Positions 1 through 17,052 of a stretch of 22,193 bases of DNA are shown here, piece after piece. Source of the DNA: a virus. The notes below the pieces were generated by a model, which had not been told where the DNA came from, ran no database searches, and worked only from the letters and a program-made list of their open reading frames with translations. Both the position numbers and the translations under genes were made by a program. The first letter of the stretch is position 1. Every line of letters begins with the position of its first letter. Location of the stretch: IMG/VR virus record IMGVR_UViG_3300028600_000021, positions 1-22,193 of that record; one strand, written 5' to 3'.

Positions 1-1308
1 TTTTTCGACGGCGGTAAGGTCTAATTTTGTCCGGCCAATACTAAAGGGTAATTGGACTTCCGTAAGGCCCTTAATATTTACGTAGTCTTGGTTTATTACA
101 TTTATCGGCGTTGTAATGGCTTGGAAGACCCGGCCCGCTTGGTCGTCTAAGGTGTTTTGGTCTTGGGTGTCGAATTGCCAAGCTATATTATAATTCGCTA
201 CGATTTCGTCGGTATTAAAGCCGTTAAAATCCAATAACCGGTCTTGGTCGTTAAAGTAAGCCGGAATTACGTAGGCCCCGGCTATTTCGAATTGGTCCCG
301 GCGTTCAAAAGTAAAGACGTTGTTTTCTATACGGAAATCGGCATTAAACATTTTTTTAAGTTCCCGGATAAGGTCGCCGAAGGTGTAAATATTCCCGGAA
401 TTATCCGGTACCCCGGTTTCGCCGGAAGACCCGCCCTTTTTATCCTTGGCGGGAACGTGGACCCAATCTAATTGGCTAATACTGCTTTGGAAGGATAAGC
501 CCAAATATTGGCAAGACCTTTCGAACATTCGGCGAAATGTCATTCCTAAATGATTTCGAAGCGGCGGTAAAAGTTGCAAGAATATTTCTTCGATAAGGTT
601 TATAATTGCCAAGGTAATAGCAATGGTATAAGCTATTCGCGCGACTACTTCCAAGCCGGCGAAAACGTAGTCCCCAATATCCCAAGCGGTAACGACCCCG
701 GCGCCAAGACCAACCGACGCGCCGACGACCGGCGTACCGGCATTTACCAAAATCCCAATGGCCCGGGCTATATTTTCGACGTTTTCTATAAGTTCTTTGG
801 TCATTAAATAAAGCGAAAGGCTTAATAAGATTAATTGGGTACCGTCCGGGACGAAATTTATAACGTAAGGGACCTTTACAAAGTCCCCGGAAGTTATTAC
901 CCCTTGGTCTTCCAAATACGCAAAGCTAAAGCCGTCGGCTACGTCGTTAAGCCAATCGGACCCCTTGCGCTTCTTTAGGCCGACGCTTATTTCTTCGCGC
1001 CCGAATACCGTTACTTCGTCGGTAAAATCCAAGTACCCTTCGAAAGTGTAAACCGGGTCGTTTGGGTCCCCTACCTTAATCGTATACGGTTCCCCTTCGA
1101 ATATCCCGACCCCGCCGGAAAGTCCGTTTAAGATACGTTCTTGTAAAAACCTATTGGCTTCCAAGACGAAATCCAAATCGGCAATATTGATATTTACGCC
1201 GTTTTGGTCGTTTACCCAATCGACGTTAATTACCAAGTCTTGCCAGTTACGCGGCGTTCCTAAGTCTTGGCCGTTAATGTATTGGGTTATATTTGGGCGA
1301 ATAATCAT
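1..1308 (-). CDS. Tail protein downstream of tape measure, C-terminus cut by window edge
   Basis: An open frame of 436 codons starts at ATG 1308 and runs off the left edge without a stop, so the C-terminus is missing. The start overlaps the tape measure stop as ATGA. The N-terminal 110 residues look beta-rich with many Asp, Asn and Gly. Residues about 155 to 240 are strongly hydrophobic (for example GASVGLGAGVV and AIAITLAIINL), which is unusual for a virion protein. From about 308 a segment beginning TFGDLIRELKKMF and followed by DFRIENNVFTFER resembles tail hub or baseplate-type proteins. A position directly after the tape measure gene is typical of distal tail or tail-tip proteins. I infer a tail-tip or baseplate component; the exact family is not recognised. 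Confidence 0.85.
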   Translation of the reverse strand, partial: MIIRPNITQYINGQDLGTPRNWQDLVINVDWVNDQNGVNINIADLDFVLEANRFLQERILNGLSGGVGIFEGEPYTIKVGDPNDPVYTFEGYLDFTDEVTVFGREEISVGLKKRKGSDWLNDVADGFSFAYLEDQGVITSGDFVKVPYVINFVPDGTQLILLSLSLYLMTKELIENVENIARAIGILVNAGTPVVGASVGLGAGVVTAWDIGDYVFAGLEVVARIAYTIAITLAIINLIEEIFLQLLPPLRNHLGMTFRRMFERSCQYLGLSFQSSISQLDWVHVPAKDKKGGSSGETGVPDNSGNIYTFGDLIRELKKMFNADFRIENNVFTFERRDQFEIAGAYVIPAYFNDQDRLLDFNGFNTDEIVANYNIAWQFDTQDQNTLDDQAGRVFQAITTPINVINQDYVNIKGLTEVQLPFSIGRTKLDLTAVEK

Positions 1309-4300
1309 AAACGCGGCTTCTTAATTTGGTAATGGTTTCTTTTTGTGGTCCTTCGGGCCGTTACGGTTTCGGTAAAGGTTAAAACCCCGTCTACTATTTC
1401 CGGGACGCTAATAATTTGCGTTGGCTTTTCCTTAATCGCTTTTTTGACTTCCCGAAGTTCGCTAATAATCCGGGTATCGGTTTTTTGGATAACAGTACCG
1501 CCGGCCAAGAATTCTTCTTTTTGCCCGGTAAAGAAATTTCGGTCTATTGGACCAAGACCGGCCGCGCTTTTAATATCGTAGAAGTTTCCTTTTCCAAGGT
1601 TTGCCATTTCCTTTTTAGAAAAGATACCTTCTTGGCCTTCTACTAAGACCGGAATACCGCCGCCCTTGCCGCTATGGCTACGGCCCCGGATAATTCCTTT
1701 ACCGTCGGTCGTTTTAAGGACGTCTTCGATAATACCCCCTTCGCCAAAGCTTGCGGCCAAGGCTTGCAGTATTGCGAAATCCTTAAGGGTAGCCGCCAAG
1801 GCCCCGCCCGGTATTTTAGCTAATTCCGCATTTTGCGCGTTTGCAGTATAGGCGGTAAATAACGCCCGGGCTTGTTCGGCCCGTTGTAAGCGTTTTTGTT
1901 GCTTCTGCAATTCCAATTCCGCTTTGGCCCGTTCCCTTTGTTCAAAGGCCAAAGTATTAGCCAAGCCGTTTTCGGCCCGCGTCCTTTGTTGGTCTTCCCT
2001 TTCTTCTACGTCGGTAATACGCTTTTCGGCGGCGCTTACCCTTTCTTGGTTGCTTTCGACGACCTTATCCAATATTTGATTAAGGGCCGCGAAGGTAGCG
2101 TCCCGGATTTTCTTTTGTAAAGCTTCTTGTTTTTTGGCGGCGTCTTCGGCGGCTTTTATTTCTTCTTCTTTGGCGGCTTTTTTGTCGGCTAATTCTTGGT
2201 CTATTAAACCTTTGATAATGGCCGCTTTTTCCCGTTCCAATTCGATAGCCCGGTCCGAACCTTCTTTAAGGCCCCTTAATTCTTCGTCGATAGCTAAAAG
2301 CCGGTTTCCTTTCCTTTGGTCTTCGGCGCGCTTAGAAATTGCGGTCCGTTCTTCTTCCAAGTCTTCCAGTTGCTTAAGAAGCGCCGTTCTACCTTCGGAA
2401 GAAAGCCCGGCGGGGTCTATTTCCCCAAGGGCGTTAATTCTTTCGTTAAGCGCGTCCAAGGCGTCTAATTCGGCTTGGTCGACCAATAGATTTTCCGAAA
2501 GTTCATTTACAAGCCTACCGGTTTCGGCCAATTCTATATTAAGGGTTTTAAAATCGCGTTGGCCGTTTCGGGCTTCTATGATAAATTCCCGGAAGCGGTT
2601 AATTACGATTTCGGGTAAACCAAGGCTTTGCAATTCTTCGTTAAGGTCGACTATGTTATCGGTCGAAAGCGCTATACCTTCGTTAAGGACTTGGAAGTTA
2701 CCTTCTTCGTCGAATTCTATTTCCAAATCCAAGTCGGCGCCGATTTGTTGGGCGAACTTATTAAATTCGTTTAATTCCCTTTGGGCGTTTTCCCGGAACT
2801 TTTTAACGAACCTTTCGAATTCGATAACCCGGTCCGCGAATCGTTCCCGCGTATTGGTTATGGCTTGTTCGTTCAAATTCTTTTCGGTATCTATAAAGTC
2901 GATAAGAAGGTCTAAATTTTGTTCGAATAAGTCCCGTTGGATTTCCCGGCGTTCTTTGGCATTTTCCGCGCTATTGGCGGCTTGTTCGTTTTCCGCTTCG
3001 GTTAAAGCTACCAAGGCTTCCGCTTGTTCGACGATAAGGTCTTTATTAATTTCCAAGTCTACGCCCCTTTGTTTGGTAAGTTCCGCCGTCGCTACGGCAA
3101 AGGCCGCGCCCTTTTGGGCTAAATCAATATTGGCGACTTCTTGGGCGTTAAGTTCTATATTCGCTTTTACCCGTTCGTTAACTTCTTCCAAACTTTGGCG
3201 CGCAATTTCTACCCGGCGTTTGGCTATTTCGTCTTGTAAACGTAAGCTTTCCCGGTTGGCGTCTAATTGTTGGCGAAGGCTTCGCGTACTATCGGCGCTT
3301 GCAATTTGGGCAAGTTGTAACCGGCCTTCCAATTCGGCTAATTCCCGGTTAAGTTCCCTTATATTGGTTTCGATATTAAAAGCGTTTTCGATATTGTCCA
3401 AGCCGGCTACTATTCCGGTCCCGACGTTATCAATAGTTTTGCCCAAGTCTACGAAGGCTTGTTCTATACGGTCCAAGTTATTACCGAAGTTTTCAAATAC
3501 GGCGGCGGGTCCTTTGGTAAATAAGGTCGTTATACTATCAAAACTTATACTTGCGGCTTCCCCAATAGCGCTAAAAATTTCCCGGGCTATTTGTCCGAAG
3601 CCAGTTAAGGCGGCTTGCAAAGTCGTAAGGGCCTTTTCTAAGCGTATGGACCCGGCGACGGTATTACCGAAGGCGGAACCAAGGGCGGCAATTCCCAAAA
3701 CGACTACCCCGATAATCGAAGCTTTAAGGACCTTATTAAGCCGGCCAAATTGTACTATAAGGCGTTTGGCCCCGCCGGCCCCGTTTTCCAAGCCTTCTTC
3801 CAAGTCGGCTAATTGTTTGCTATTTAAGGTTAAGGCTTGGACTACATTATTTAACGCCTTATCCAAGACCCCTATACCGGTCGCGAAGCCTTCCGTTCCG
3901 GCTAAAGCGTTTTGGATGCTTTCTTCGTAGTTACCGACGTTAATTTTATTTTGGATAAACTTGTCGCTATTTTCTTCTAACGTATCGGTAAGGCTATTAA
4001 TTTCGTCGTTAAGGGCGGCTACTTCCGCGACCCCTTCCGGCGTGGTAATATCAATTTCGGAAGCGACCAAACGAAGGGCGGCCAAACGTTCCCGGATTTC
4101 TTGAAGGCTTCGGGCTTGGTTGGTCCTTAAGGTTTCTTGGGCCTTTAATAATTTTTGTTGTCGAACGCTTAATTTATTGTCGTTTAAAACTTCCTTGGTA
4201 TACTTGGAAAGTTCTACCCGGGTCGCCTTGGTTTCCAGTTGCAAACGCCCCCGGGCTTCGGCGGCTTTGGTTATACTTATTTCCCCTTGTTTTTCCGCTT

Positions 4301-4664
4301 CGTTTATAATCTTAAGCGCGGTTTTTTGTTGGGCCAACGTTACGTTAAGTTTGGCTATTGCTTTGTCTTGTTCTTCGGTAAGCTTAAGGCCCTTTTCTTC
4401 GGTTTCGTTAAGGTCTTCGGTAAGTTCTTCGACTTCTTCCAAAGTATCGGCGTAAGCTTTTTGGGTCTTGGTAAGGCTTTGTATTTGGTCTTCCAAATCC
4501 GATACGGCCCGGATATTGGCAATGTCGGCCAAGTCGGCCCCTTTCCTAATTCGGTCCGCTTCCTTAATAAATTCGTCGCCCAACTTTTTAAAATCGTCGA
4601 TAGCCTTTTGGAAGCCGCCGTCGTCTTCGAAAAAGTCGCTATATTTTATTAAGATATTATCCAT
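1305..4664 (-). CDS. Tail tape measure protein
   Basis: This 1119-residue protein sets tail length and is carried inside the tail tube. It is the largest gene in the window and follows the G/GT chaperone pair, the normal place for a tape measure. Residues 1 to 250 and about 410 to 1000 are long charged coiled-coil stretches rich in Glu, Lys, Leu, Ala and Gln. Residues about 314 to 340 are a hydrophobic segment (IIGVVVLGIAALGSAFG), common in tape measures and linked to DNA injection. Near the C-terminus is a Gly-rich segment with HSGKGGGIPVLVEGQEGIF, a type of motif I associate with tape measures of Bacteroidota phages. By the usual rule of about 1.5 angstroms per residue, the tail would be near 170 nm. 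ATG 4664 directly follows the stop of the frameshifted chaperone. Confidence 0.93.
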   Translation of the reverse strand: MDNILIKYSDFFEDDGGFQKAIDDFKKLGDEFIKEADRIRKGADLADIANIRAVSDLEDQIQSLTKTQKAYADTLEEVEELTEDLNETEEKGLKLTEEQDKAIAKLNVTLAQQKTALKIINEAEKQGEISITKAAEARGRLQLETKATRVELSKYTKEVLNDNKLSVRQQKLLKAQETLRTNQARSLQEIRERLAALRLVASEIDITTPEGVAEVAALNDEINSLTDTLEENSDKFIQNKINVGNYEESIQNALAGTEGFATGIGVLDKALNNVVQALTLNSKQLADLEEGLENGAGGAKRLIVQFGRLNKVLKASIIGVVVLGIAALGSAFGNTVAGSIRLEKALTTLQAALTGFGQIAREIFSAIGEAASISFDSITTLFTKGPAAVFENFGNNLDRIEQAFVDLGKTIDNVGTGIVAGLDNIENAFNIETNIRELNRELAELEGRLQLAQIASADSTRSLRQQLDANRESLRLQDEIAKRRVEIARQSLEEVNERVKANIELNAQEVANIDLAQKGAAFAVATAELTKQRGVDLEINKDLIVEQAEALVALTEAENEQAANSAENAKERREIQRDLFEQNLDLLIDFIDTEKNLNEQAITNTRERFADRVIEFERFVKKFRENAQRELNEFNKFAQQIGADLDLEIEFDEEGNFQVLNEGIALSTDNIVDLNEELQSLGLPEIVINRFREFIIEARNGQRDFKTLNIELAETGRLVNELSENLLVDQAELDALDALNERINALGEIDPAGLSSEGRTALLKQLEDLEEERTAISKRAEDQRKGNRLLAIDEELRGLKEGSDRAIELEREKAAIIKGLIDQELADKKAAKEEEIKAAEDAAKKQEALQKKIRDATFAALNQILDKVVESNQERVSAAEKRITDVEEREDQQRTRAENGLANTLAFEQRERAKAELELQKQQKRLQRAEQARALFTAYTANAQNAELAKIPGGALAATLKDFAILQALAASFGEGGIIEDVLKTTDGKGIIRGRSHSGKGGGIPVLVEGQEGIFSKKEMANLGKGNFYDIKSAAGLGPIDRNFFTGQKEEFLAGGTVIQKTDTRIISELREVKKAIKEKPTQIISVPEIVDGVLTFTETVTARRTTKRNHYQIKKPRL

Positions 4665-5428
4665 TTACTTAGGTTTATTTTTGTCTTTTAAATGTTCTAA
4701 AGAAGCGTAAAAAGTAAAGGTCGAAACCTTGTTAATATCTACGCCGACTTGGGCGGCTACGGCTACCCCGAATTTTTGGAAATCTACTTCTAATTCGCGT
4801 TCCATATTATGGTCGTCGTAAACGTTCCAAGAATTGGGCTTATCATAGTTTAAAATTTCCTTTTCTACCTTATAAAGTTCGTCTTTAAATTCTTCCGTTT
4901 CTATTTTATTTTCCCTTACGGCTTCGGCCAACATTTTGACCCGCTTAAGCCTTAAGGCCGTATGGTTTGGCTTTGCGACGCGCGGGAAAAAAGCCGGGAA
5001 ATAAAGGGTAAGTTCGGTTTCGACTTTTTTTTTATTTCCATTAACTTTTTAAGGCTCAAATCTTGGCCCAACCCTATTTCTTCCAAATGCCGCAAAACTT
5101 CGTCCAGTTCGTCCGGGGAAATCCCGGTATATTTTTTCCCGTCGATAGATTTTACCAAAATAGCAAAGCCCCTTCCGGCCGGGGAATATTCGTTATAAGC
5201 ATTAAAGACCGCTTGGCGCCGGTTGTTTAGTTCTTGTATTGCTTCCGGGACCATATCTTTTTGAAGAAACTGTAAAGTTTTGGTCGTCCGCCGGTCGTAG
5301 TCTTCGAAGCTATTACCAACTTCGTTGGATAGCATTAAATATTTGTTGAATTTCTGAAATCTAAGAATCGGCAAATTTTGCGTATTGTCGTAAATTTCTA
5401 TTTTATGGCCGTTAACTTCTACTATCAT
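4665..5428 (-). CDS. Tail assembly chaperone GT, made by -1 frameshift
   Basis: Two frames join at a slippery A AAA AAG at 5030 to 5024. After a -1 slip, translation continues in the frame that starts GTC at 5024 and stays open for 119 codons to the TAA at 4667 to 4665. The product would be about 254 residues: 135 from the upstream gene and 119 from the T part. The 30 codons between the slip site and the first ATG of the T frame (4934) read like real protein, with LTLYFPAFFPRVAKPNHTAL, which supports read-in over independent initiation. In lambda, G and GT bind the tape measure during tail assembly, and this gene abuts the tape measure start. Independent initiation at ATG 4934 (89 residues) cannot be excluded. 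Confidence 0.78.
4952..5428 (-). CDS. Tail assembly chaperone G (unshifted product)
   Basis: This is a 158-residue protein. I chose ATG 5428, which overlaps the upstream stop as ATGA and begins MIVEVNGHKIEIYDN. A longer reading from 5536 would lie mostly over the upstream membrane gene in another frame. The protein has a beta-like N-terminus and a helical, charged middle with LDEVLRHLEEIGLG. Its position just before the tape measure and the slippery run near its C-terminus match the lambda G type. The unshifted tail after the slip site, ending QSQTIRP, is basic and looks poorly constrained, as expected if only the shifted frame is under strong selection. The function is inferred from position and the frameshift arrangement, not from sequence similarity. 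Confidence 0.75.
   Translation of the reverse strand: MIVEVNGHKIEIYDNTQNLPILRFQKFNKYLMLSNEVGNSFEDYDRRTTKTLQFLQKDMVPEAIQELNNRRQAVFNAYNEYSPAGRGFAILVKSIDGKKYTGISPDELDEVLRHLEEIGLGQDLSLKKLMEIKKKSKPNLPFISRLFSRASQSQTIRP
5024..5030 (-). promoter_or_regulatory. Slippery heptamer A AAA AAG for -1 frameshift
   Basis: The coding strand holds nine A residues (5033 to 5025) followed by G (5024). In the frame of the upstream gene the codons are ATA AAA AAA AAG, so the heptamer A AAA AAG is correctly phased; the same heptamer drives E. coli dnaX frameshifting. A -1 slip enters the open T frame. I see no strong stem in the usual 5 to 9 base spacer; a weak 6-bp pairing GGCTTT with AAAGCC begins about 28 bases downstream. 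Nine A residues could also cause polymerase slippage, giving the same fusion by another route. Confidence 0.75.
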
Positions 5429-5697
5429 TTTTCTAAAATTTGAAAGGCGCCCCCGACTAAAAAGGGAACGGCCAATATTCCGGGGAATAAACCCCAAATT
5501 GTAAAGAAGACCCCGGAAATTATGACCGAAAGCCAAAAGCGTTTACACAAATGGCAAAAACTTAAATTATAAGCCCACCGGTAACGGGAATTAGCGGCCC
5601 AAGCTTGGTACTTGGACCATATACCCCATTTATCCAAAAGGGCGTCTAAAAACGCCGTTAAAAGCGTTACGTATATTATAACTTCTACGGTTCGCAT
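5425..5697 (-). CDS. Small membrane protein with CxxC motif
   Basis: This is a 90-residue protein with a hydrophobic N-terminal helix (VIIYVTLLTAFLDALL) and two hydrophobic C-terminal segments (LSVIISGVFFTIWG and FPGILAVPFLVGG). Between them lies FCHLCKRFW, a Cys-x-x-Cys followed by aromatic residues. The pattern recalls the CPxCxxFW motif of DUF1360-type membrane proteins, but the match is from memory and weak. ATG 5697 overlaps the previous gene by 13 bases, and its stop overlaps the chaperone start. A membrane protein between tail completion and chaperone genes is not a standard virion part. It may act at the host membrane, for example in infection exclusion, or simply be co-transcribed. 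Coding is well supported; the role is unknown. Confidence 0.8.
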   Translation of the reverse strand: MRTVEVIIYVTLLTAFLDALLDKWGIWSKYQAWAANSRYRWAYNLSFCHLCKRFWLSVIISGVFFTIWGLFPGILAVPFLVGGAFQILEK

Positions 5698-16602: not shown

Positions 16603-16702
16603 TTTTTAAGGGTTTTATTTCGTTTCTGTATCTGCTATAAAGCTTTTCCCGGGTTTCGTTGTCTACGCCCTTTAACAAGCTGAAAAATTTACGCTTGTTC
16701 AA
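16499..16702 (-). CDS. Possible small basic protein from a TTG start
   Basis: A frame of 67 residues starts with TTG 16702, which overlaps the TGA of the upstream gene. The first 31 residues lie in an otherwise empty gap and look like real protein (FFSLLKGVDNETREKLYSRY). The remaining half overlaps the following gene by 104 bases in another frame and is a very basic, low-complexity reading (RLRLRLLEFLKSS) that may be a shadow of its neighbour. Either a real overlapping gene, a decayed gene, or a chance frame is possible. Confidence 0.35.
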   Translation of the reverse strand: MNKRKFFSLLKGVDNETREKLYSRYRNEIKPLKNGKQKRRKLTEEERRTKSIRLRLRLLEFLKSSRN

Positions 16703-17052
16703 TTCGCGAAAGTTTTAGAATAACAACATTTCTTAAACTTCGCCCCGGACCCGCAAGCGCAAGGCTCATTCCTTCCCGGGGTTTTAGGCCGTCTAATTGT
16801 CGGCATTTTAATAAGCGGTATTCGCTTTAAGACCCAAGTAATACCCATTTTTTGGGCGTGGGGTTTATTGGTTTCGTTCGTAGCGAAGTCCGCGACTTCT
16901 AAATAAGTGTACCTATGGCCCCGGTCGTAAATCGTATTGGTAACGTCGAAAAGCAAATTTACGTCTTCTAAAGAATAAAATACTTCGCGTTCCGCCCATA
17001 GGTCCCGGATTTGTGTAACTATTTTTTGTCTAAATTCGTCGGTTTCGCTCAT
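16699..17052 (-). CDS. SEC-C zinc-motif protein
   Basis: The 117-residue protein ends in GRNEPCACGSGAKFKKCC at residues 93 to 110, a complete SEC-C motif with Cys98, Cys100, Cys109 and Cys110 as likely zinc ligands. SEC-C motifs occur at the end of SecA and in many small proteins that bind partners. The first 90 residues are helical and show no recognised domain. The start ATG 17052 overlaps the upstream gene by 23 bases. The motif is certain; the partner and role in phage growth are not known. Confidence 0.85.
   Translation of the reverse strand: MSETDEFRQKIVTQIRDLWAEREVFYSLEDVNLLFDVTNTIYDRGHRYTYLEVADFATNETNKPHAQKMGITWVLKRIPLIKMPTIRRPKTPGRNEPCACGSGAKFKKCCYSKTFAN

Follow-up and report, generated by a model that had tools for sequence, protein, structure and literature searches.

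A poly-A run as candidate site of transcriptional slippage in a tail-chaperone-type gene of Bacteroidota siphophages

Tail chaperones made in two lengths serve as a textbook example of ribosomal frameshifting that has been conserved. In the stretch of DNA analyzed here (referred to as the window, a virus record of 22.2 kb), the gene directly preceding the tape-measure gene contains a run of nine A residues shortly before its reading frame closes, and an open frame displaced by -1 extends from this run to the tape-measure gene. This arrangement raises the questions of whether the two frames give rise to one long protein in addition to a short one and, if so, whether it is the ribosome or the RNA polymerase that slips on the A-run.

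The recoded gene and its products

All genes of the window are encoded on the minus strand, where terminase, portal, capsid, and tail genes and the tape measure are found in the core order of a siphophage. The features surrounding the A-run are collected in Table 1. The run, which is read in the zero frame as GAA ATA AAA AAA AAG TCG, is the sole A or T run of at least nine nucleotides within the 22.2-kb window, and an exact-match scan found no further copy of the slip site. The heptamer A AAA AAG at positions 5030-5024 is in the phase required for -1 slippage. Whereas the short product consists of a conserved N-domain (residues 1-135) and a non-conserved tail of 23 residues, joining of the zero-frame and -1 parts leads to a long product of 254 aa, and the C-domain contributed by the -1 part is in frame in continuous relatives. 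The start of the tape-measure ORF directly adjoins the stop of the -1 frame (TAA ATG), and the stop of the small gene on the other side overlaps the start of the recoded gene by 4 nt (ATGA). A preliminary description of the locus had reported nine A followed by G near the end of the upstream gene with A AAA AAG in phase, a -1 frame open for 119 codons from inside that gene, and the end of this frame where the tape measure starts, and all three statements proved exact. Two minor observations concern other proteins of the window: in Parabacteroides phage PDS1, the homologue of the small membrane-like protein at the corresponding position carries a DUF1360 annotation, and a 117-aa protein (16699-17052, minus strand) carries a C-terminal SEC-C-like zinc motif (PCACGSGAKFKKCC) spotted by eye only.

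Table 1. Features at and around the A-run of the window.
Feature	Positions	Strand	Particulars	Evidence
Small membrane-like protein gene	5425-5697	-		phrog_13297; comparably sized gene at the equivalent position in several relatives
Zero-frame ORF, short (G-like) product, 158 aa	4952-5428	-	Start ATG at 5428, stop at 4952	Reading frames; match of residues 1-138 to phrog_8914
Slip site A9G	5024-5033	-	A-run 5033-5025, G 5024	Sequence; codon-level run conservation in 87 of 88 family representatives
-1 frame part, C-domain of long (GT-like) product	4665-5024	-	From G5024 through 119 codons, stop ending at 4665	Match to phrog_8914 positions 137-249
ATG-started ORF within the -1 part, 89 aa	4665-4934	-		First in-frame ATG of the -1 part
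Tape-measure gene	1305-4664	-	ORF start at 4664	Homologue annotated as tape measure at the equivalent place in relatives; phrog_14476

In profile searches, the zero-frame part matches positions 2-139 of phrog_8914 (E 1e-51) and the -1 part matches positions 137-249 (E 3e-27) of the same family, which comprises 250 positions and is labelled “virion structural protein”. As both halves match contiguous parts of one family, covering its full length, the 254-aa fusion seems to be a real natural protein. It also aligns end to end and in one piece with uninterrupted proteins of Flavobacterium phage isolates (54% identity, E 3e-89). In a confident model of the full-length family protein (mean pLDDT 91.9), the Lys-Lys-Lys site encoded by the run is situated inside one helix (residues 122-143), and in the model of the short product of the window the N-domain is folded and the tail (residues 136-158) is disordered. 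What is supported is a gene of the tail chaperone type with two products, placed immediately ahead of the tape measure, whose two frames are connected through -1 recoding at the A-run. Searches of Pfam, PDB sequences, and PDB folds identified no characterised chaperone matching the family, and viral fold searches matched the family itself only. A role as tail assembly chaperone is suggested by synteny and by the annotation of others.

The A-run in related phages and its surroundings

Searches with the fusion protein by tblastn matched 77 phage records, consisting of phages of Flavobacterium, Bacteroides, Parabacteroides, Croceibacter, Elizabethkingia, and Alistipes, and in most of these relatives the protein is encoded by a single uninterrupted ORF. 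Profile searches of IMG/VR and GTDB genomes provided about 95 further loci; some 700 Bacteroidota genomes gave few matches, one of them being a very distant prophage (L131) with A10 and a -1 split. In a representative set of 88 sequences with less than 85% nucleotide identity to one another, the gene is continuous in 71, split in -1 direction in 14, and split in +1 direction in 3, although individual frame states in metagenome contigs might reflect homopolymer errors. On a quick tree with many weak forks, the frame state changes at least 10 times. Flavobacterium phage 1/32, an isolate, is split by -1 at A10 and its depositors annotated a joined CDS, whereas P2559S and BF8P1 are split in the opposite direction. 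The nearest kin of the window (L026 and L128) possess the same A9 split, although the base after the run is not the same. Of the two sister genomes L027 and L020, one is A10-split and the other A11-continuous. According to Antonov et al. (PMC3711429), transcriptional realignment is recognized by a shift direction that differs among orthologues, and ribosomal frameshifting by one uniform direction; since the direction is not conserved among the orthologues studied here, the family reads as transcriptional by this rule.

At the nucleotide level, all of the 105 sequences examined at first have an A-run at this point, A9 to A12 in 104 cases and A8 in one. This result is not built into the search, because the peptide search patterns were back-translated with both Lys codons. 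Among the 88 representatives, the run is retained at the same codons in all but one (one A8, otherwise A9-A12), and the three Lys columns are AAA in 87 of 87, 88 of 88, and 87 of 88 sequences. Observed over expected synonymous diversity amounts to 0, 0, and 0.05 for these columns vs. a median of 0.976 over 238 columns, meaning that codon choice elsewhere is essentially saturated. AAA makes up 57% of the other Lys codons of the gene, just 3 of 29 Lys-Lys-Lys stretches elsewhere in the loci are encoded by three AAA codons, and the run is kept even in loci which employ mostly AAG at other Lys positions. A naive probability for this codon choice of about 1e-74 is a guide only, as the sequences are not independent. 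Chance A-richness was rejected as an explanation, since just 8 other A or T runs of at least nine are encountered in about 354 kb of loci (nine were listed, one of which, a T10 in L131, corresponds to the slip site).

The preliminary description had taken a dnaX-type heptamer for the slip element. This heptamer is present in the window, yet it is the whole A-run that is conserved, and this in three genomic frames. The last codon of the run can be AAG, AAC, or AAA, and this variation extends to the clade of the window, where L026 and L128 have A9C. In the phase of the window, the first A is the third base of the preceding codon, and phase-0 genomes mostly have GTC followed by a full A10. The conserved element is a run of nine or more and not a heptamer, the dnaX heptamer being incidental. 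Programmed transcriptional slippage calls for an A/T stretch of at least about nine residues that is conserved at the nucleotide level, and this is about the length of the RNA polymerase hybrid (PMC5009743). One exception to run conservation is L125 (with its near copy L126), where around position 1581 Arg-Lys-Lys is encoded by CGA AAA AAG, a bare in-phase heptamer within a continuous ORF. There the long run is lost and A AAA AAG is kept, and slippage by the polymerase has perhaps given way to slippage by the ribosome.

Codons immediately 5' of the run displayed low synonymous diversity, which led to the detection of a stem with a 3' arm that terminates 0-1 nt ahead of the run. Its arms are formed by pairs such as GACCGC/GCGGTC, GATCGGGTC/GACTCGATC, ACTGGCTGAA/TTCAGCCGGT, GACAGGCTT/GAGTCTGTC, and others, 25 distinct pairs being found in continuous-A10 genomes. 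This hairpin is encountered in 49 of the 59 continuous-A10 genomes vs. 12.3 expected from synonymous shuffling, and the control at other codon boundaries of these genomes yielded 3.0. The clade displaying it consists mostly of Bacteroidales phages. An excess of folding exists only at the hairpin position (mean z -2.3), with values near 0 elsewhere, including downstream. Only one register is alignable; there, 95% of the cells are paired with 6 double changes, and the covariation score is 0.150 vs. 0.067 in shuffles and at most 0.06 when slid, the slid control being biased in favour of the hairpin because the structure was read from the same sequences. An intrinsic terminator was considered and rejected, as a hairpin followed by A residues on the sense strand has the wrong polarity. 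In the Flavobacterium-phage clade, to which the window belongs, the hairpin occurs in 4 of 28 genomes vs. 2.2 expected and is absent from most. In agreement with the preliminary description, which had noted the lack of a close stimulatory stem, no significant local fold was detected in the window 3' (z -0.43) or 5' of the run, and hairpin assistance is not indicated for the window itself. A conserved downstream stem of the dnaX type was not found in any of the genome groups.

Transcriptional slippage and its alternatives

We consider it likely that the gene contains a frame-agnostic poly-A slip site which acts chiefly through RNA polymerase slippage and gives short and long products. For the window alone, with its heptamer and without a hairpin, polymerase slippage as the main mechanism is slightly less likely, though still probable. 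According to this proposal, a tail-chaperone-type protein would be made in two lengths, the N-domain up to Lys-Lys-Lys being common to both and the C-domain being restricted to the long form, and a poly-A slip site, A9 in the window and A8-A12 across the family, would act as the switch in place of a fixed heptamer for the ribosome and its stimulators. On the A-run, RNA polymerase would slip, generating mRNAs with one A more or fewer. In the window, the 158-aa short form would be translated from unslipped mRNA and the 254-aa long form from mRNA carrying an additional A (A10). A single-A insertion, precisely what the window genome requires for the long form, is a common, if not the commonest, transcription indel in A/T runs of E. 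coli (PMC5574713). In relatives with both parts in register, the roles would be inverted, such that unslipped mRNA would encode the long form and slipped mRNA, on which translation stops soon, the short one. In continuous genomes a change by one A leaves 0-30 codons before a stop, and 113-124 codons are regained when a single A is added in -1 genomes. Re-initiation at ATGs located just past the run in some relatives was rejected, as the shifted frames close within 30 codons. In the Bacteroidales-phage clade, slippage is probably promoted by the hairpin adjoining the run on its 5' side, acting from the RNA exit channel. That the run is kept even in unsplit relatives suggests slippage in all of them, with one gene giving proteins of both lengths. 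We infer that both products are made and needed and that it is the polymerase rather than the ribosome that slips. The genomic frame might drift between continuous, -1, and +1 states because the slip site would work in any register, and one-base indels, lethal in another gene, would here change only the default product. The wider picture, in which a family of Bacteroidota siphophages forms its tail chaperone pair by RNA polymerase slippage, assisted by a hairpin in one clade and with a drifting genomic frame, seems moderately likely.

The main alternative is a programmed -1 shift of the ribosome as known from lambda G/GT and E. coli dnaX, taking place on A AAA AAG in the window and on A AAA AAA in relatives, with the long run merely providing a good heptamer. 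Such a shift would yield the same product in the window because the window carries A AAA AAG. This is the most shift-prone ribosomal heptamer in E. coli, it is present in the right phase and without a hairpin in the window, 14 of the 17 split genomes are -1, and L125 keeps CG A AAA AAG without a long run. Ribosomal shifting is also the usual route for tail chaperone pairs of this type (PMC5009743). However, the conserved run of nine or more includes bases outside the heptamer, such as the third base of the preceding codon in those genomes whose phase calls for it, and in the nearest kin of the window the heptamer is A AAA AAC, which is much less effective in E. coli (PMC5009743). Furthermore, the direction of the shift varies in the family, there is no 3' stem, and a hairpin situated 0-1 nt from the run would be expected to be melted by a ribosome positioned on the slip site. 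A purely ribosomal explanation is thus rather unlikely, and polymerase slippage, which the preliminary description had offered as an alternative, is favoured at the family level by run conservation and varying shift direction.

It seems very improbable that the split in the window results from a sequencing error or a dead mutant and that the true gene is continuous with A10. Homopolymer runs are prone to error and most relatives are continuous. Also, the near-identical Bacteroides phage isolates BF8P1 (L007) and B124-14 (L008) differ by A11 vs. A10, the ORF of BF8P1 being broken, a difference for which real variation and sequencing error are both possible. Yet L026 and L128, which are independent contigs, share the A9 -1 split, phage 1/32 is an isolate whose split gene was annotated as joined, and the distant prophage L131 is likewise split, and sequencing error as sole cause was rejected on the basis of L026, L128, and phage 1/32; codon-level conservation of the run stands even if one genome is wrong. 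Hardly credible is a third possibility, that two independent proteins are formed and the 89-aa ORF is translated from its own ATG without any fusion being made. Such an ATG-started ORF is present and some annotators call two genes in split relatives, but the 30 codons before the ATG, which the preliminary description had rightly regarded as natural protein, are conserved in the family and match phrog_8914 from the run onward. In addition, relatives make one continuous protein, and the Lys-Lys-Lys site lies within one helix of the family model. The 89-aa ORF is probably not an independent gene.

Comparison with known recoding systems

The genes G/GT of phage lambda resemble the window in that a gene with products of two lengths is located directly upstream of the tape measure and the long form arises by a move into the -1 frame close to where the short ORF ends. 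The likeness to lambda G/GT proposed in the preliminary description therefore stands for the layout of the gene, but homology to a characterised chaperone does not, there being no detectable kinship in sequence or fold. Unlike lambda, most relatives are continuous, with the long product as default, and the slip site of the family is a poly-A run in any frame. In lambda, the ratio of short to long form is about 30:1. As a large excess of the short form is required there (PMC5009743), continuous genomes would need very efficient slippage or another stoichiometry. Whether tail assembly needs a fixed ratio of short to long form or tolerates an inversion can be tested in these phages.

Related slippage is known for dnaX and for insertion sequences. 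In dnaX (ribosomal in E. coli, transcriptional in Thermus thermophilus, and the two-ORF type of Chlorobi), an A-run leads to short and long products as proposed for the phage family, and orthologues exist in continuous as well as split forms (PMC3711429, PMC5009743). The phage gene differs in identity and function, in uniting continuous, -1, and +1 forms within one family, and in the 5' hairpin of one clade. In the transcriptional slippage of IS1447 and of the Roseiflexus IS630 element, the run directly follows a stem-loop, as it does in the hairpin clade (PMC5009743, PMC6211511). In IS1447, slippage of about 16% in each direction was measured for an A9, and its hairpin is predicted and not proven necessary (PMC6211511). 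In contrast to the phage tail genes, these elements encode transposases, and most members of the clade to which the window belongs lack the hairpin.

Among phages, the homologous pair F132_37/F132_38 of Flavobacterium phage 1/32, annotated as “tail assembly chaperone” (KJ018210), is the annotation of a single genome. In the open-access literature searched, no paper was found on poly-A slippage for tail chaperones or in these phages, nor on continuous homologues keeping the run, nor on the hairpin. The conserved signal of the family looks transcriptional and is hidden in most genomes inside an uninterrupted gene, so that annotators and frameshift predictors relying on split ORFs would miss it. 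Runs of A6 to A12, with and without hairpin and in three frames, constitute a natural series for the measurement of slippage in Bacteroidota. A minor feature of the continuous-A10 relatives concerns the Ile codon after the run, which is ATA in 37 of 59 genomes vs. 36% of Ile codons elsewhere (p 3e-5). With ATA at this place, loss of one A creates a TAG stop directly after the run, and the enrichment is suggestive only.
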